DNA of 40,738 bases from an uncultured Bacteroidota bacterium. Lineage in GTDB: Bacteria > Bacteroidota > Rhodothermia > Rhodothermales > Salinibacteraceae. Positions 4,772 to 40,620 of the stretch are shown here, piece by piece. Location: positions 1 through 40,738 of the forward strand of contig CAKZLV010000347.1 in assembly GCA_937127285.1 (NCBI GenBank). The letters run 5' to 3'. The notes beneath the pieces were generated by a model that ran no database searches, was not told the origin of the DNA, and saw only the letters and a list, made by a program, of their open reading frames with translations. Made by a program: the position numbers and the translations under genes. Numbering within the stretch: the stretch's first letter is position 1; each line of letters begins with the position of its first letter.

Positions 4772-5172
4772 CACCCTTCCGCCACGGCGTCGTCCTCCGG
4801 GCAGCGTTCGGCCCGGTTGCCGGTCGGGGGCGCGATGTCGGCGCCGCGCAGGATGCCATCGAGTTCCAGCATGGCAGTGGCGCCGTGCAGAAGGGTGTCG
4901 AGGCGCAGCACCTCCGTCGAACACAAAACGACAACCGACTGCCCCGGGCCGCGCAGTTGCCACCGGCAGTCGTTGCCGCAGCGATAGACGTCGCCCGCCA
5001 GCGAATGAGTGGCCTCGTGCAGGTCGTGGACCGCCTCGGGAGGGAGCGTCCACCTCAGATCGCCCAGGGTGATGCGCACCAGGCGGTCGGAGAGGCGGTG
5101 GACGGTTCCGTGGTCGGTCGCAAATACGACGGACGGATCGGGAAACGAAGCGTCGGTCTCAGAAAGCGTCAT
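4771..5172 (-). CDS. Uncharacterised 133-aa protein
   Basis: The frame starts MTLSETDAS and ends 'PEDDAVAEG'. It contains a compact, mixed alpha/beta-looking core: 'HGTVHRLSDRLVRITLGDLRWTL', a Cys pair 'YRCGNDCRW', then 'QSVVVLCSTEVLRLDTLLH'. No catalytic motif is evident. It vaguely resembles small Bacteroidota proteins with a 'gntyhltfgn'-type fold, but I cannot name a family. The same frame is open far upstream through the exchanger gene; the ATG at 5172 is chosen because the residues upstream of it are shadow sequence of low quality (Arg/Pro/His-rich). It converges with argS and lies 137 bp downstream of the exchanger, so the two could be co-transcribed. Confidence 0.75.
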   Translation of the reverse strand: MTLSETDASFPDPSVVFATDHGTVHRLSDRLVRITLGDLRWTLPPEAVHDLHEATHSLAGDVYRCGNDCRWQLRGPGQSVVVLCSTEVLRLDTLLHGATAMLELDGILRGADIAPPTGNRAERCPEDDAVAEG

Positions 5173-5309
5173 CGGAGTCGCCGTCAACACGTGAACGTAC
5201 TGCAACGGACTATTTAGATCCGATCCAGATAAGCAGGTTCCGCCGGACGGGCGTCGGGCTTGCGGTCGTCGGGCTCGCGGAGACGCACCGACGCCAGCGA
5301 GGGCGGAGC

Positions 5310-6314
5310 TCAGGCGACGATGGTGGTGACCCCGATCGTTTCCAGAACCATCCACACGATAAAGACGGCGTAGAGGCCGAGCAAGAGGTAGGCGTCGTCG
5401 CTGCGCAGCGTCAGCTCGATCCGCATGGTGGCGAAGAGAACGAGCGTTGCGACGGTGAGATAGGCCATCATTGGAACCGCCGCGGCAAAGTTCACCGATG
5501 CCGCCCCGGCAATGAGAACGCCGGCGGGAACGGCAACGAGGAGGTCGAAGATGTTCGATCCCAGGACGTTGGCAATGCTGACGGTTCCGTAGCCGGAGCG
5601 CGCCGCCCGCACGCTGACGAACGCATCTGGCAGGCTCGTGCCTGCCGCCACGACGGTCAGTCCCCACAGAAAGGGAGGCGTTCCGAACCATTCGCCGAAC
5701 CCGATGGCGGCGTTGACAAGCGCCTCGACCCCGATGAGGATGAGCAGCAGGCTGACCGAGAGCTTTCCCCATTCGCGCCGGATGGGGATGGGCTCTGGCG
5801 ACGAGTCGGCCGTGAAGTCGAACGCATCCTGTTGCTGGAGGAAGAGGTAGAGGGCATAGAGCCCGATGGGAAAAACCGCGAGGGTTCGCGTCACCATCCC
5901 GGTGGTCTGCGGGCCGGGGAGGGGGTGGTAGATGACCGCAAGCGCGAAGGTGAGCAGAAGGACGGCGACCGATGTGAGGTAGAACTGCGCGTCCTTGAAG
6001 ACGAGTTCTCGCTCCACCACGATCTTCTGACTGGCGATGGCGGCCAGGCCGGGGATCACGAGAATATTGAAGATGGCGGATCCGACGATGGCCGCCACCC
6101 CCAAATCGAACGTGCCGTGAAGCAGCGTCGACAGTATGGTGCTGGACAGCTCCGGGAAGCTGGAGCCGACGGCAGTGATCACGCCCCCCTGAACGACGGG
6201 AGGGAGCTGATAGTGAAGCGACAGGCGCCGGGACGCCGACTCCAGTTTTTCGCTTCCCCACCACGTGATGGCCGTGCCGAAAACGGCGAGGCCGGTGTAA
6301 AGAAGAAGAAGCAC
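5310..6314 (-). CDS. CaCA-family Na+/Ca2+ (cation) exchanger, inner membrane
   Basis: A 334-aa polytopic membrane protein with about ten hydrophobic segments. The two inverted alpha repeats of the family are clear: 'GSSFPE' at residues 50-55 with 'GSAIFN' at 78-83, and 'GTSLPD' at 225-230 with 'GSNIFD' at 252-257. The acidic residues E55 and D230 are the expected cation ligands. A hydrophilic cytoplasmic loop (about 160-185) separates the halves. Such proteins exchange cytosolic Ca2+ (or another cation) for Na+ or H+, which suits a high-salt habitat. The family is sure; the ion pair is not. The start at 6314 gives a hydrophobic first segment directly at the N-terminus. The preceding 376 bp hold no gene but a 15-bp repeat array. 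Confidence 0.9.
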   Translation of the reverse strand: MLLLLYTGLAVFGTAITWWGSEKLESASRRLSLHYQLPPVVQGGVITAVGSSFPELSSTILSTLLHGTFDLGVAAIVGSAIFNILVIPGLAAIASQKIVVERELVFKDAQFYLTSVAVLLLTFALAVIYHPLPGPQTTGMVTRTLAVFPIGLYALYLFLQQQDAFDFTADSSPEPIPIRREWGKLSVSLLLILIGVEALVNAAIGFGEWFGTPPFLWGLTVVAAGTSLPDAFVSVRAARSGYGTVSIANVLGSNIFDLLVAVPAGVLIAGAASVNFAAAVPMMAYLTVATLVLFATMRIELTLRSDDAYLLLGLYAVFIVWMVLETIGVTTIVA

Positions 6315-8740: not shown

Positions 8741-11242
8741 CTACTCACGCCAGGGGATCCGCCAGATTTCCTCTCCATCCGTCCGTAGCCACACCGCTCC
8801 CTGACGGGATGTAGAGTGAACGATTGCTCCGTACCTCTCCCAACGAGAGAGAACGTCGGAGTTCGGAAGGCCGAACCGGCCGTGCCGACCTACGCTGACC
8901 ACAGCATGAAGGGGAGCGCCCTTCTGCGAAACGCACTCGACAAACGGGATTCCACTGCTGGTCGAAGATCCGTGGTGGGGAACCTTCACGACGTGGCTAG
9001 ACAACATTCCTCCGTATCGGCGAACCAGCCACTGCTCTCCAGCCTCTTCGACATCTCCCGTCAGCAGCCACCGCGTGCTTCCGAAACCAATTCGAAGGAC
9101 GACGGACGCGTCGTTCTCGTGAAACGTGAGGGGGCGGGCGCCGCCGGGGGGCGGCGCAAGAACCTGAAGGACAAGTCCTCCACCTGCTTCGAGGATCTCT
9201 CCTGCCACCGCCGGCCGGTACGGCACCGACAGACGATCCAGGACGCGCCGGCTCTCCTCAAACAGTTCGGTTGACGCCTCCCAGCCGCTGGTCAGCACGG
9301 ACCGGACGTCCACCTCCCGAAGGAGTGTAGGAAGTCCCCCGAGGTGATCGCTGTCGGGGTGTGTGATGACAACAGCATCGAGGGTTCGAATGCCCCGGTG
9401 CTGCAGAACGGGGAGGAGGACGCGACGTCCGGCATCGCTGACGTGCGACCGCGGGCCGGTATCGACCAGGAAATGGCGATTGCCGGGAGTGCTGATGAGG
9501 ATGGCATCGCCGTGGCCCACATCCAGAAACACAACGTCCAGATGCGATCGGGACTCACCGGAGAGGACGGGGGTCCAGGCCCACAGACACAGAAATGCCA
9601 GGCTGGCGGCTCCCAGCCGCCAGCGCAGCCGAGGTCGGGGCCACTGCGCACCCATGGCCAGAAGAGAGGCGAGTGCAGAGAGAACAAACAGAGACAGGCC
9701 GGGGACAGCAAGAAGCCCCCAGTTGAACCACACCGCCCCCCACTGCGCCGTGTGAAGGAGTGCGCGAAGAAATACGTCAGCTGCTGTTCCGAACGCCGCT
9801 GCCGCCCCGGAGAGGACGCCGCCGGCGAGAACACACAGGATGCCGGCCGTCAACCCGGCCGCCGTCAGCGGGATGGCGGGAAGGTTCAAGACCACTCCAC
9901 CAATTTGCGCCTGGCCGAAATGAGCCAGCAGAACGGGACCCGTTCCCAGTGTTGCGGCGACCGACACGGACAGCAGGGAACTCGCCCACCCGCCCACCGG
10001 ATGAGCGAGAACCGCTTCCGGGATTCGCTCCGACAGGCGCGGGTGGAGGGTGATGATCCCGGTTACGGCCGTCATCGATAACTGAAAGCCAGCGTCGAAA
10101 AGAGCCAGAGGACGGTGCATAAGCAGCAGGAGCGCCGCCACGCCGAGACTGTTGAGGGTGTGCGGCGACCGCTGAATAAGGAGTCCGCCGATAAAGACGC
10201 TCGCCATCACCACGGCCCGGACGACCGAGGGCCGGGCCCCGGTCAGCAGCATGTAGAACAGGAGGACGCCGATGGTGAGGATGGCTCGGGCTCCCTCGCG
10301 CACCGGCCGGGGCAGCCGAACGCGCATCAGCAGCGGCCGCAGGAGGCGGTAGAGGATCATCCCCACCAGCAGCACATGCAGTCCCGACACGGCCAGCAGG
10401 TGCATCAGACCGGTGTCGACGAACTGCTCTTGCTGCTGGCCGGTGAGGCTGCTTCGGTTACCGAGAAGGAGCGCCCGCAGGATGCCCCCCGACGCGTCCG
10501 AAGGAACGAACCGCCGGATGTGCCGGTCGACGTATGCGCGTCCGCGCACCGTAATCTCCTGAAGGCTGCTGCGCGTATCGCCGAGGACGCGAACGCCGGC
10601 AGGCGTCTGCACGAACAGCGTGCAGCAGATTCCGCGTCGGTGGAGATAGGCTCCGTAGTCGAACCCTCCCGGATTGCGGGGGCCGGGGGCCGGTCGGAAG
10701 GTCCCCTGAAGCTCGACGCGATCCCCTTCGCGGAGGGTCGGGTAGGACGGTGTGGATATCCACAACGGGTTGTGGAGAGTCGCCCGCAGGCGACCGGTGG
10801 CGTCGATTGCGGCGGCGGGCGGGGCATCCGCTCTCCGGATGGTTGATACCGCCAGGGTAAACCGCCAGCTTCCGGATCGCTGTTCGGGAGGATCGGCAAT
10901 GGTGCCCGCCACGACGGCGTCGAGGCCGGTTTCCCCTGCCGTTGCGGCCAGAACGGCAACGGAGCGTGGGGGCGGGCTCTGGATGGCCGCCGTGCGGGCG
11001 CCGCCGGCGGCGACGGCCAGCACCGCCAGGCTCCCGACCCGGGCCAGAGGGGCGAGAGAGAACAGGCGAGATCGTTCGCGAACCGACGCACCCGCCATCC
11101 CGCCCACCCCGGCCCCAGCAACACCGAGCCAGCCCCCGAGTCCGATGGACAGAGACACCTCCAGGGCGGTCCCGACCGCAAACGTTGCGGCAACGAGCAG
11201 GGCCGGATAGGTCGACCAGTGAATGTGGGAATCCGGCTGCAT
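8741..11242 (-). CDS. comEC: ComEC/Rec2-family DNA uptake channel
   Basis: An 833-aa inner-membrane protein for transport of single-stranded DNA in natural transformation. The N-terminus has several membrane spans, then a soluble OB-like domain ('GDRVELQGTFRPAPGPRNPGGFDY', about 175-200). The polytopic competence domain follows from about residue 250 ('LLHLLAVSGLHVLLVGMI'-like segment). From about residue 560 a metallo-beta-lactamase-like domain carries 'VFLDVGHGDAILI' and the metal motif 'THPDSDHLGG', proposed in this family to be a nuclease. All three domains are present, so it appears intact. No other competence genes are adjacent. It reads toward the DnaA-box cluster, converging with pgi. 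A 14-bp palindrome made of two overlapping DnaA-like boxes lies inside the gene at 10751-10764. Confidence 0.93.
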   Translation of the reverse strand: MQPDSHIHWSTYPALLVAATFAVGTALEVSLSIGLGGWLGVAGAGVGGMAGASVRERSRLFSLAPLARVGSLAVLAVAAGGARTAAIQSPPPRSVAVLAATAGETGLDAVVAGTIADPPEQRSGSWRFTLAVSTIRRADAPPAAAIDATGRLRATLHNPLWISTPSYPTLREGDRVELQGTFRPAPGPRNPGGFDYGAYLHRRGICCTLFVQTPAGVRVLGDTRSSLQEITVRGRAYVDRHIRRFVPSDASGGILRALLLGNRSSLTGQQQEQFVDTGLMHLLAVSGLHVLLVGMILYRLLRPLLMRVRLPRPVREGARAILTIGVLLFYMLLTGARPSVVRAVVMASVFIGGLLIQRSPHTLNSLGVAALLLLMHRPLALFDAGFQLSMTAVTGIITLHPRLSERIPEAVLAHPVGGWASSLLSVSVAATLGTGPVLLAHFGQAQIGGVVLNLPAIPLTAAGLTAGILCVLAGGVLSGAAAAFGTAADVFLRALLHTAQWGAVWFNWGLLAVPGLSLFVLSALASLLAMGAQWPRPRLRWRLGAASLAFLCLWAWTPVLSGESRSHLDVVFLDVGHGDAILISTPGNRHFLVDTGPRSHVSDAGRRVLLPVLQHRGIRTLDAVVITHPDSDHLGGLPTLLREVDVRSVLTSGWEASTELFEESRRVLDRLSVPYRPAVAGEILEAGGGLVLQVLAPPPGGARPLTFHENDASVVLRIGFGSTRWLLTGDVEEAGEQWLVRRYGGMLSSHVVKVPHHGSSTSSGIPFVECVSQKGAPLHAVVSVGRHGRFGLPNSDVLSRWERYGAIVHSTSRQGAVWLRTDGEEIWRIPWRE

Positions 11243-11692
11243 GGCCCACCGCGGTTGGAGGGACAGATGGAAGAACGAGAAGAGAGGCCCGGTGCGCCGT
11301 TGGGGCCGGGACTTTCCTTTCTAGACACGCCAGGGGCGTCGGTATAACCTGATCGTCTCCCTGACCATCTCCGTCGACAACGGCGTCTTGCGGATCGGCA
11401 GACGGACCGGCGCGCAATACCCGCGAGCGGAATATCCAAGATTGAGGGAATCTGGATTGCCGCCCGAACCCGTCTAGCCCTCGCTGATACGAGCAATGGT
11501 TTGGTAAAACGCAATCCGACCTTCCCGCATCCCGTCGACGCACCCCTTCATTCGTCCCGATCGCGTCCACGAGGACAGACTCCGGCCGCAGGCCCAGTCA
11601 GCGAACGGCCCCGCCGCCCGGACCAGGACGTGCCGACGAATTGACGACGAAGCGTCCTGCAACTCCGGTTTTCCTCTCGACTGATTCAGCTT
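11243..11692. other. 450-bp gap between divergent comEC and nusB; no gene seen
   Basis: No frame on either strand shows a recognisable protein or convincing composition. A short imperfect hairpin (ACGCC-AGG-GGCGT) lies near 11325-11338. The promoters of comEC and nusB should be here, but I cannot point to a clear consensus. Confidence 0.5.
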
Positions 11693-12175
11693 ATGAGTAC
11701 CCGACGTCACGCCCGCGAATGCGTCATGCAAGCGCTCTACGCCCGTGAGATGGCGGAAGATGACAGTCGAGACTACTACATTCAGACGGTGATTCAACCC
11801 GAGCTTCAGGACGACGGCGTCCTGCTGGAGTTTGCGAAGAAGCTGTTTCGGACCACGATCGCGACGACCGACGAGGCCGATACCGTCATTGCCAAGCACG
11901 CAGAGAACTGGGAGGTTCATCGCATCAATCCCGTCGACCGCTGCCTGCTGCGCATGGCGACGGCCGAACTGCTCGAGTTCGAGGAAATTCCCCCGAAGGT
12001 GTCGATTGATGAAGCGATCGATATTGCCAAGAAGTACTCGACGCCGCGCAGCGGGAACTTCATCAACGGCGTGCTCGATTCGATCTTGATGGATCTGGAG
12101 CGCCAGGACCGGCTGCACAAGACCGGACGCGGCCTGGTGGGAATCGACTCGATTCGCGACCGGGCTCGCTCGTAG
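11693..12175 (+). CDS. nusB: Transcription antitermination factor NusB
   Basis: It binds boxA RNA with S10 (NusE) in rRNA antitermination complexes. The 160-aa product is all-helical with the family start 'STRRHARECVMQALYA' and the conserved core 'INPVDRCLLRMATAELL' and 'KVSIDEAIDIAKKYSTPRSGNFINGVLD'. Length matches the family. The start at 11693 fits the first conserved helix exactly. The 3' flank is a 382-bp gene-free gap, so it is probably a single-gene transcript. The tail ('GIDSIRDRARS') is slightly longer than usual and not conserved. Confidence 0.96.
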   Translation: MSTRRHARECVMQALYAREMAEDDSRDYYIQTVIQPELQDDGVLLEFAKKLFRTTIATTDEADTVIAKHAENWEVHRINPVDRCLLRMATAELLEFEEIPPKVSIDEAIDIAKKYSTPRSGNFINGVLDSILMDLERQDRLHKTGRGLVGIDSIRDRARS

Positions 12176-34485: not shown

Positions 34486-34750
34486 TCTGAGAACCTGCTT
34501 GGTGGATAGATGCGACGCCGACACGAGCGAAGCGCCGTGACCGAAGGGAGCAAGTACTCCTGGGGATGCGACTGACGCAGTAAACACAGTGGGCGAAGTC
34601 TCCACGGAGCGCTCAAACGAGGCCTCTGGTGAGCTACCGGGCGAGGGCCGTAGCTTCATGGAGCGAGATCCACGACGTCGCAGCGCCCTGAGCGGAGCGA
34701 AGAAGTGCCCTTGGGGTGGCCGTAGACCGTCCGCCAAACAGGTTCTGAGA
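34486..34750. mobile_element. MITE-like element with imperfect terminal inverted repeats
   Basis: Outer ends at 34486-34506 and 34730-34750 are inverted copies over 21 bp with three differences; the core is AGAACCTGCTTGGTGGA on the left and TCCGCCAAACAGGTTCT on the right. The 265-bp interior has no gene, but carries two copies of a motif (GGGAGCAAGTACTCCTGGGG near 34546 and GAAGAAGTGCCCTTGGGGTG near 34699) that recurs inside the element at 39.8-40.2 kb. No target duplication is visible at its edges. The rest of the 742-bp gap (34081-34822) shows no gene. Confidence 0.55.
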
Positions 34751-38000: not shown

Positions 38001-38036
38001 CTTCAGTGGGCGCGAACGCGCTTCAGCGGGCGCGAA
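38001..38036. repeat. 20-bp direct duplication overlapping the dnaA stop codon
   Basis: CTTCAGTGGGCGCGAA at 38001-38016 and CTTCAGCGGGCGCGAA at 38021-38036, spaced by CGCG. The second copy includes the dnaA stop codon, so the first looks like a duplicate of the gene's 3' end. Confidence 0.82.
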
Positions 38037-39651
38037 GCTCGATCTTGCGCCCGATCGTTTCGACGAGGCTGCGAAACGGCTCGTCGGTCTCCATCTGATC
38101 CTCGACGGACTGGTTGGCGTGGATCACGGTGGAGTGGTCGCGCCCTCCGAAGTGCAGCCCGATCGTTTTCAGGGAGTGCTGCGTCCACTGCTTGCAGAAG
38201 TACATCGCGATCTGGCGGGCACGGACGGCTTCTCGCTTGCGGGTGCGGTCGCGCACAAGGTCTTCCGCCAGGTCGAGATACTCGCAGACGATGCGCTGGA
38301 TTTCTTCGATCGTCAGGTTGACCTGTCGGTCCTCCACCAGGTCGTGCAGGACGTCCTTCGCCAGGGCGAGGTCGAGGTCGCGCTGGTGAAGGGTGCTGTG
38401 GGCGAGCAGCCGGATGAGTGCCCCCTCCAGTTCGCGAATGTTGCTTTTGATGTTGTGAGCGATGAACTCGATCACCGCCTCGTCGAGGTCGACGCCGTCG
38501 TCTTCGGCTTTGCGCTGCAGAATCGCGATTCGCGTTTCGAGCCCCGGAGGCTGGACGTCGGCCGAAAGGCCCCACTGGAATCGCGACAGCAGCCGCTTTT
38601 CGATGCCCTCGATGTCGCGCGGCGGTCGGTCGGCCGATAGTACGATCTGTCGTCCACTCTGATGCAGGGCATTGAAGATGTGAAAGAATTCCTCCTGCGT
38701 CTTTTCCTTTCCGCTAAAGAACTGCACGTCGTCGACGATCAGCACGTCGATCTGGCGGTAGAACATCGAAAACTCTCCGATGCGGTTGCGCCGGATCGAC
38801 TGGACGAAGTCGGTCGTGAAGCGCTCGCTCGACACGTAGAGGACCGTGCGGTCGGCAGTACCCTGCGCGTAGTTACCCACCGCCTGGATCAGATGCGTCT
38901 TCCCCAGGCCGACGCCGCCGTAGACGAGAAACGGGTTGAAGCTGGTTCCTCCCGGTTCCCGCGCAATGGCCCAGGCGGCCGATCGGGCAAGCCGGTTGCA
39001 GTCGCCCTCGATAAATCGTTCGAAGGTGTAACTCCGGTTCAGGCGGCTGTCGATTTCATTCGTCTGCAGTCCAGGAATGGCGAACGGATTGCTGACCGGA
39101 GGATCGTTCTCCCCCGCCCGGGGGCCGTCCGTAGAGGGACCGGCAGCCGAGGCGCGCGTTGCGTCCGACGACGTTGCGCCCGTCGGGTCCGAGGTGGCCG
39201 GCTGCCGTCCGTCCCGGCGTGCAGCGGCCGGGCCGTTCCGGGAAACGCCCGGTGCGGCATCCGGACCGGCGGCGCGCGGCGAGCCGGATGCCTCGGGGGC
39301 AGGAGGGGCGCCGTCGGAATCGGGGCGACGGGCCGGGAGCTGCATCGATGCCCCTTGGTCGGGATCGGACGGGTCTTCTCGCTCGATGACGACATCGTAG
39401 AAGAGGCGCCCGCTCGGGCCGAGCACGTGGGTGACCGTCTTGCGCAGAAGCGAGAAGTAATGCTCCTCCAGCCACTCGTAGTAGAAACGGCTGGGAAGCT
39501 GAATGGTCAGCTTCGTGATACCATCTTCCTCCGTCAGAGACTGCGCCTGCAACGGCTCGAACCAGGTCTTGTAGCTCTGGCGACTCACTTGTGCGCGGAT
39601 GAGATCCAGGCACTGCTCCCAGACCTGTGGTGCCGTCGGGTTCGGACTCAT
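38023..39651 (-). CDS. dnaA: Chromosomal replication initiator DnaA
   Basis: It binds DnaA boxes and opens oriC. The 542-aa product has domain I (1-90, 'VWEQCLDLIRAQVSRQSYKTWFEPL' features), a long disordered domain II (about 92-204, rich in P, A, D, S), the AAA+ domain III with Walker A 'GGVGLGKT' at 245-252 and Walker B 'VLIVDDVQFF', and domain IV with the box-recognition signature 'FGGRDHSTVIHA' near the end. Domain II is longer than in E. coli. The start at 39651 fits the conserved domain I. The 5' flank holds a MITE-like element and then DnaA boxes, so autoregulation could be altered by that insertion. Confidence 0.98.
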   Translation of the reverse strand: MSPNPTAPQVWEQCLDLIRAQVSRQSYKTWFEPLQAQSLTEEDGITKLTIQLPSRFYYEWLEEHYFSLLRKTVTHVLGPSGRLFYDVVIEREDPSDPDQGASMQLPARRPDSDGAPPAPEASGSPRAAGPDAAPGVSRNGPAAARRDGRQPATSDPTGATSSDATRASAAGPSTDGPRAGENDPPVSNPFAIPGLQTNEIDSRLNRSYTFERFIEGDCNRLARSAAWAIAREPGGTSFNPFLVYGGVGLGKTHLIQAVGNYAQGTADRTVLYVSSERFTTDFVQSIRRNRIGEFSMFYRQIDVLIVDDVQFFSGKEKTQEEFFHIFNALHQSGRQIVLSADRPPRDIEGIEKRLLSRFQWGLSADVQPPGLETRIAILQRKAEDDGVDLDEAVIEFIAHNIKSNIRELEGALIRLLAHSTLHQRDLDLALAKDVLHDLVEDRQVNLTIEEIQRIVCEYLDLAEDLVRDRTRKREAVRARQIAMYFCKQWTQHSLKTIGLHFGGRDHSTVIHANQSVEDQMETDEPFRSLVETIGRKIELRAR

Positions 39652-39774
39652 ATCGATGGGGGGATCGATTGAGGAATCGGGCCGACCGCGATGCCGGCGC
39701 GCCGCTTACGGGAAGAATCAGCGTCTGATGCAGGCGTAGCAACTCAATCGCGGCACAGACAAAAGGGCCAAGAC

Positions 39775-40208
39775 CAATGGTGTGAAGTTGTTTTCGGGGA
39801 AGCTCTACACTATCCCCTGCACGGTAGGTCTGTCTCCACTTCGTTCATTCAGCAGGTCTGTTCTCTCCATTCATTGAGATGGATACCAAACCCGATGTCC
39901 ATTTTGATGGCCCCAAAATGGACCAGACGAGCGAAGCGCCCCGACCAGCGGGAGGAAGTGCCCGTGGGGTGCGACTCACGAAGTAAAAGGGCTTGGCTGT
40001 CTGAAAAGGACCTGACCCTCGCCCGCGCTCCACTGAAATTGATCCAACTCGCGCGATGGGGTCGCGCTCAGACAGGATCAATTTCGGTCGTTGAGCGCGG
40101 CCGAGCGTCCGGGCGGTCCTTTTCAGAAGGCCGATCTCAGCAATAAACGGTACGGGCTCCGAGATTCGCGAGGGACATCTTGTCCAAACGAGCAACTTTA
40201 CACTATTG
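39775..40208. mobile_element. 434-bp MITE-like element with 16-bp inverted ends and a 9-bp target duplication
   Basis: The left end CAATGGTGTGAAGTTG (39775-39790) and the right end CAACTTTACACTATTG (40193-40208) are inverted copies differing at two of 16 positions. Immediately outside, the same 9 bp, GGCCAAGAC, occurs at 39766-39774 and 40209-40217, the mark of a transposition event. No transposase frame is inside. The interior holds a small hairpin (GTCCATTTTG with CAAAATGGAC near 39897-39922), a dispersed motif shared with 34.5 kb (39931-39987), and a long nested hairpin (40001-40126). It lies 123 bp upstream of the dnaA start, between dnaA and the nearby DnaA boxes. Confidence 0.85.
40001..40126. 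repeat. 126-bp nested hairpin inside the MITE-like element
   Basis: Four nested perfect arm pairs share almost one axis: CTGAAAAGGACC 40001-40012 with 40115-40126; CCGCGCTC 40023-40030 with 40093-40100; GAAATTGATCC 40035-40045 with 40075-40085; GCGCGA 40051-40056 with 40062-40067. Only small bulges separate them, so either strand could fold into one long rod. It may be the fold-back core of the element or a structured RNA. Confidence 0.85.
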
Positions 40209-40397
40209 GGCCAAGACAAAAGGGCAAGGACGAAGGGCCGAGCACCGAGAAGAACACCGAGAAGAAGACAGCGAAGCGAAGAGGGAGAGCCGCCACCGCG
40301 GGGAGGGCGCGCCGGAAGTCGCGGAGGACGGGAGCGGGGCGCCCCGACCTCGGCAGGCTCCCGCAGACGGCCCTGCTCCTCCGGGGCGTCCACAATG

Positions 40398-40620
40398 TTA
40401 TCCACACATTCACGGAGCGACGTCGGTAAAAAAGAACCAGGCTCCGACCGACGCCCTCGATATCCACAAGTTATCCACAAGTTTTCAACGTTACGTAAGG
40501 TTCTGGATTACAAACCTTACGGAAAAACAGGGGGCGTTGTGATTTCCAGGATGGAGTCGGCGGTCTGGCGCTCTGCCCTTGTACCTTTCGTCCCTTCACT
40601 CCGTGCTCCGGTTATCCACA
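40398..40620. other. DnaA-box cluster upstream of dnaA, candidate oriC part
   Basis: Perfect TTATCCACA boxes lie at 40398-40406, 40471-40479 and 40612-40620, with a one-mismatch box at 40460-40468. The middle pair is part of an 11-bp tandem duplication ATCCACAAGTT (40462-40483). An AT-richer stretch with a TTACGTAA palindrome and CGTAAGG/CCTTACG arms (40494-40521) follows. The region from 40209 to the window end shows no gene; the origin may continue past 40738. Position next to dnaA-dnaN is the classic oriC place, though boxes are fewer than at 8.1-8.5 kb. Confidence 0.78.

Follow-up and report, generated by a model that had tools for sequence, protein, structure and literature searches.

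Elements of the IS200/IS605 and REP/RAYT kinds carry hairpins near both ends and have neither inverted ends nor a target duplication. Among bacterial MITEs, an example is MITECca01 of Cardinium, which is derived from an IS982-family element, and the available part of its description presents MITEs of this type as short, gene-less elements with inverted ends that occur in many, mostly intergenic copies and are presumed to be mobilised in trans, a set of traits that aligns them with the element described here (PMC9769881). Also related in kind is the RAGATH-18-derived reRNA of IS607 TnpB, which, as far as the available part of the source describes it, is likewise a noncoding RNA of a mobile element, built of stem-loops and pseudoknots (PMC11061315). 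The locus analysed here has traits of each of these groups: a MITE-type element lies between dnaA and its upstream DnaA boxes, and within it sits a structured core that is also found well outside the element. The explanation that takes insertion and core together, namely a MITE moved in trans to dnaA and carrying a dispersed structured core, is given a probability of about 0.72.

The element between dnaA and its boxes

The window, by which is meant the whole stretch of 40,738 nucleotides that was analysed, is contig C347 of a draft genome of 370 contigs. The features of the insertion and its surroundings are:

38023..39651, minus strand: dnaA, its sense strand being the one on which the core seems to fold
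39766..39774, no strand assigned: left copy of the 9-bp target duplication GGCCAAGAC
39775..40208, no strand assigned: whole element, non-autonomous (MITE-type), 434 bp
39775..39792, plus strand: left terminal inverted repeat CAATGGTGTGAAGTTGTT
40191..40208, minus strand: right terminal inverted repeat CAATAGTGTAAAGTTGCT (minus-strand reading), 15/18 identical to the left one
40209..40217, no strand assigned: right copy of the 9-bp target duplication GGCCAAGAC
40398..40620, no strand assigned: span of three TTATCCACA DnaA boxes, parted from dnaA by the element

An earlier note on this DNA had described 16-bp inverted ends, a perfect 9-bp target duplication and the absence of a transposase. The inverted ends are present where the note placed them, but they are imperfect, with an identity of 15/18 over 18 bp and 14/16 over 16 bp, which the note left unmentioned. 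The duplication is as perfect as claimed, both 9-bp repeats outside the element ends reading GGCCAAGAC, and the three ORFs that cross the element gave no Pfam transposase match. Perfect 9-bp direct repeats that directly adjoin ends with an identity of at least 14/16 are seen once in the window and in none of 20 block-shuffled windows. The search of the own genome for further copies, proposed in the note, returned 25 stretches matching the element, the query counted among them; one copy, on contig C106, is near full length with 86% identity to the window element, and many others are cut at contig ends, as would be expected if the repeat breaks the assembly. Several of the own-genome copies (L006, L008-L010 and L015-L017) adjoin sequences resembling one arm of the palindrome CCCCTTTTTGACCGGTCAAAAAGGGG, and this arm is perhaps a favoured target of the element.

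Sister copies in related genomes carry ends similar to those of the window element, and near-perfect 9-bp repeats surround the copies in G007 (TCCTGGGCC/TCCCGGGCC and GGCGCTAAC/GGCACTAAC) and G025 (CTCTGGGCC/CTCTGGGTC). For one of them the empty site can be read in another genome: in the neighbouring species G012 a single GGCGCTGAC occupies the place at which the G007 element stands between GGCGCTAAC and GGCACTAAC. For the second G007 copy that was tried, no empty site could be read. The empty-site comparison suggested for the window copy was thus achieved for a sister copy, the genus of the window copy having one genome in the set. Together, the ends, the 9-bp duplication, the multiple copies and the empty site of the sister copy identify a non-autonomous MITE-type insertion. 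With its inverted ends, its 9-bp duplication, its small size of 434 bp and no transposase gene, the element passes as a MITE on every test run, apart from the locating of a parent element. A full IS with these ends, which the note had proposed to look for, was found neither in the own genome nor in 27 family genomes, nor in a looser scan of 7 genomes; the end scans gave short elements only, with no facing ends at IS distance as judged from their positions. Consequently, the transposase is absent from the assembly, belongs to an IS too divergent in its ends, or went unrecognised. The claim that the element was moved in trans is still a fair conclusion from its missing transposase, although no IS with these ends turned up, and a cut-and-paste transposase encoded outside the assembled part of the genome would have been the mover.

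The separation of dnaA from its boxes by more than 600 bp, as stated in the note, is borne out: the nearest consensus box lies at 755 bp, and, counted upstream from the start of dnaA, the far edges of the three boxes are at 755, 828 and 969 bp. Minus 443 bp, these boxes would sit at 312, 385 and 526, close to the boxes of G004 at 300, 386 and 517, and with the insertion their upstream distance from dnaA grows from about 312-526 to 755-969 bp. A dnaA gene was found in 60/60 genomes searched, the own genome included, and dnaA loci were taken from 29 relatives, 28 of which had usable upstream DNA. With TTWTNCACA as the consensus, and distances counted from the start of the dnaA match, boxes were found in the stretch examined upstream of dnaA in 22 of the 28 relatives, and the other 6/28 had no match there; in these element-free relatives the distance to the nearest box ranges from 146 to 594 bp. 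In view of this range and of the boxless loci, to call the site one of the most constrained regions of a chromosome, as the note did, was an overstatement. The core had no match at the dnaA loci of 28/28 relatives examined, nor did the element by blastn.

These data bear directly on the alternative to an insertion, in which the stretch would be an ancestral component of the origin, the outcome that the note had named as its refutation. No point in support of such an origin part was found, and it conflicts with the presence of the element in many copies, with the 9-bp duplication, with the 28 element-free dnaA loci and with the box spacing, which comes close to that of G004 once 443 bp are removed. 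It is rejected, with its probability put at practically nil. In the preferred reading, a MITE inserted between dnaA and the upstream DnaA boxes, duplicating its 9-bp target.

Structure and distribution of the core

The note was right in seeing a transposon-like insertion with no transposase of its own, but it missed a structured core of roughly 170-200 nt that extends across the phylum. In the window copy its parts are:

39897..39923, minus strand: core hairpin H1, a 10-bp stem with a 7-nt loop at 39907-39913
39924..39984, no strand assigned: nested 61-bp module between H1 and the A-run linker, missing from many copies and itself a dispersed repeat
39985..39993, minus strand: A-run linker and pseudoknot strand (AAAA + GGGCT), pairing with GGCCC of the loop, one of the pairs being a G.T in plus-strand reading
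39995..40133, minus strand: core long hairpin H2, with a covariance-model match at 39959-40133 of 146.6 bits

When 13 related copies without the 61-bp module were folded by RNAalifold, H2 was predicted to comprise 38 pairs, 25 of them changed on both sides, and covariance model R1 was built from these copies. Across 108 copies from many taxa (106 of them distinct), all 38/38 helix pairs show double changes. The paired cells amount to 88.9%, against 56.1% after shuffling and no more than 55.8% in slid controls, the latter serving to gauge the effect size since the alignment was fitted to the model's structure and so favours pairing; the covariation score of this alignment is 0.648 versus 0.155. 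Unpaired letters around AAACTC and CTCA are conserved as well. The folded structure of the core is well supported, and it is the function, the mover and the effect on dnaA that we infer. A known RNA family as the identity of the core was rejected, as Rfam gave no core match at the gathering threshold over the window, and sets of 10 and 20 core-bearing loci gave none even below that threshold. The 61-bp module is GC-rich; a diverged copy lies at 34523-34584 of the window, and copies occur in relatives, seemingly even within coding DNA (L033, L042).

The H1 loop is complementary to the linker that precedes H2, and the two change together (CTTGAT/ATCAAG, CTTGAC/GTCAAG, AAGCCC/GGGCTT, CGGCCC/GGGCCG), so that loop-linker pairing with covariation, the mark of an H-type pseudoknot, is found in related copies. 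From 195 matches, 139 distinct H1 regions were drawn for this comparison. Complementarity is 6/6 in 89/129 distinct cases, against a mean of 48.9 and a maximum of 62 in 500 shuffles, a figure that is no probability because related sequences are not independent. An earlier form of the test, with a usable H1 in 76/83 matches, agrees. A sub-group with the loops CTGGAT or CTAGAT pairs with its linker only in part, and the window copy, whose linker holds the 61-bp insert, may have a damaged pseudoknot of its own.

The length of the linker follows a simple rule: in 179/196 copies it exceeds the T-run in the stem of H1 by one, in 15 the two are equal, and 2 copies have another length; shuffling gave a mean of 79.6 and a maximum of 95 of 196. 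Linker and T-run lengths correlate at a Spearman value of 0.936 (0.935 as a partial value given GC), and the outer part of the H1 stem shows no link with linker length (0.03). The initial count of this rule was confined to copies in which the loop reads CTTGA(T/C) and the T run is as long as the A run. A linker that matches the A-T run base for base would provide the third strand that a triple helix requires, and the length rule in these copies agrees with a U.A-U triple helix formed by the bottom strand. As judged from sequence, such a helix is a specific and easily tested prediction.

The core has a wide and patchy distribution. Model R1 detected it in 25/114 genomes of the order and, as a strict search, in 31/296 genomes sampled across the phylum, and 22/27 family genomes carry it. 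A pattern of H1 plus linker, applied to one genome per species, gave at least 120 stretches; among those listed most are from Bacteroidota, and a few are, by their record titles, from Ignavibacteria, Chlorobi, Propionigenium, Desulfobacterota, Deltaproteobacteria and Delongbacteria. Viral contigs gave 3 pattern matches to the core, and a search of plasmids and phages gave no useful match. In G032, 14 copies share the core, from H1 to a closing GGCC, amid unrelated flanks; these core-only copies end sharply, show neither inverted ends nor visible duplications, and include one with a disrupted H1. Within the Rhodothermales set, only 9/83 cores are flanked left and right by recognisable element-type inverted ends, and 19 have such an end on one flank or both, with 3/83 in the shuffled control for one side. 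As so few cores are framed by these ends, the MITE is just one of the settings of a unit that is more widespread, and its cargo is a copy of a structured core that is also dispersed by itself through Bacteroidota.

Several loci merit mention in their own right. At L359, L361 and L363 (G045) and L036 (G017), inverted-repeat frames with different ends seem to surround the core, which suggests that different MITEs captured it repeatedly. Ten cores lie in one orientation within about 32 kb at L211 and L212 (G356), among glycosyltransferase and radical-SAM genes and in many cases between successive genes, a clustering that brought integron attC sites into consideration, whose hallmarks are R'/R'' core sites and recombination by IntI. 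At L217 (G200), three tandem cores spaced at 333 bp occupy 11133-12001, and two more, in the opposite orientation, lie at 5006-5534. Finally, L147 (G012) and L164 (G015), whose flanks are about 85% identical, appear to have kept the core at one place in two species.

Strand of the fold and competing explanations

Predicted folding energy is lower on the bottom strand in 90/104 copies, by a mean of 6.1 kcal/mol; the window stretch 39900-40140 is an exception, at -117.3 for the top versus -114.7 for the bottom strand. Read on the top strand, the four helices contain 70 A.C against 22 G.U combinations, and H1 27 against 3, an excess of the form that G.U pairs on the bottom strand would take when read from the other side, part of it stemming from a few columns and clades. 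Wobble pairs on the bottom strand amount to 2.9%, compared with 8.0% in a small control of 18 distinct tRNAs, a scarcity that also fits constraint at the DNA level. The folded molecule would be RNA rather than single-stranded DNA. Since the folded strand is the sense strand of dnaA, effects through the leader are possible: if transcription of dnaA began at the boxes, the folded core would be part of the leader. The element may also change dnaA autoregulation, as the note suggested. The insertion offers a natural test of how much change in dnaA-box spacing and leader is tolerated.

The genes near the cores point to no constant partner. No protein family recurs beside the core in 41 loci, where the best cluster, of 5 loci, overlaps the core itself, and none recurs among the pattern-scan stretches, where the best, unannotated, reaches 7/120. 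Fic proteins near the cores of L149 and L168 look like chance. Within 150 bp, the core follows the 3' end of a bottom-sense gene 45 times and of a top-sense gene 36 times, and neighbours at gene 3' ends outnumber those at 5' ends by 81 to 45. A strand bias relative to genes (bottom-sense 83/137, and 45/60 within 150 bp; top-sense 36/66) was discarded as mostly a general preference for 3' ends.

Against this background, an ordinary MITE with a passive interior has to be considered, in which the compensating changes would reflect DNA-level correction of a palindrome by template switching and not selection on the fold. Long palindromes are prone to such correction, and both strands are poorer in G.U pairs than tRNAs are, yet the process predicts none of four features of the core, namely the complementarity of loop and linker, the length rule that ties T-run to linker, the strand difference in folding energy and the conservation of unpaired letters around AAACTC and CTCA, and it is judged unlikely. 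The main rival, held to be unlikely as well, is a host RNA that regulates or stabilises from 3' untranslated regions and was spread by transposons because it is useful. It would account for the excess of cores at gene 3' ends, for the core kept in place in G012 and G015 and for the G356 cores between successive genes of the glycosyltransferase region; general avoidance of promoters yields the same 3' bias, however, the core has no tie to one gene class, and its presence is patchy under the strict phylum-wide search.

Two further possibilities concern the mover. In the first, the core would be a single-stranded-DNA element, mobilised by a Y1 (HUH) transposase like those of IS200/IS605 or RAYT elements, and the MITE would have captured one copy. 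In favour of this are the sharp ends of core-only copies, free of inverted ends and visible duplication; a Y1_Tnp match is present in 28/31 core-bearing genomes versus 182/265 others, and one Y1 gene adjoins cores in G319. Three core-bearing genomes that are 99-100% complete (G012, G015 and G219) have no Y1_Tnp match, however, all other core loci hold only 2 Y1-like ORFs, 30 Y1 loci yielded a single weak core-like match, and the left flanks at 14 G032 junctions, inspected by eye, show no fixed tetranucleotide. With 3/31 core genomes lacking a match and adjacency rare, a Y1 transposase is unsupported as obligate partner, and this origin is decidedly unlikely. A SINE-like retro-element RNA copied by a reverse transcriptase would agree with the core-only copies, with a folded RNA and with an RT gene about 1.7 kb from a core in G012, but RT matches occur in only 4/27 family genomes against cores in 22/27; a reverse transcriptase as obligate partner was discarded on these counts, and the retro-element reading is very improbable.

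As the likeliest role of the core we propose, tentatively and at below even odds, that it serves recognition and stability within a mobile noncoding element, being read by a putative protein acting in trans. A fuller and more doubtful version would make the core an undescribed, self-dispersing noncoding RNA of Bacteroidota that ends in a triple-helix pseudoknot, by which the trans protein would recognise it in order to copy or move it, and which was captured by DDE-type Rhodothermales MITEs, here in the dnaA leader.

Relation to known systems

A literature search, mostly of open-access titles and the openings of abstracts, returned no description of the element or the core, and the available part of PMC7002113 contains none of the core element; the core is apparently undescribed. 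Taken alone, a MITE that parts dnaA from its boxes would be of modest interest. The core, as a large, strongly covarying and apparently undescribed structure spread over a phylum, matters beyond the dnaA insertion, and identification of what moves or binds it would reveal either a new RNA-linked mechanism of mobility or a common 3'-region RNA in Bacteroidota.

Core-only copies resemble IS200/IS605 and REP/RAYT elements in their end hairpins and in having no inverted ends or duplication; unlike these, the core has no obligate Y1 partner or fixed target tetranucleotide and bears the signature of a pseudoknot with a triple helix. It differs from the SAM-V riboswitch fold, as given in the available part of its description, in having no Rfam match to SAM-V and in being multicopy, dispersed and joined to a long hairpin (PMC6061858). 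From the IS607 TnpB reRNA, to the extent that the source at hand covers it, the core is set apart by having no recurring neighbour protein and no visible variable guide segment (PMC11061315). Compared with MITECca01-type MITEs, as portrayed in the same partial source, the window element measures 434 bp, its parent IS was not found in the genomes scanned, and its interior holds a structured core that also occurs phylum-wide without the ends (PMC9769881).
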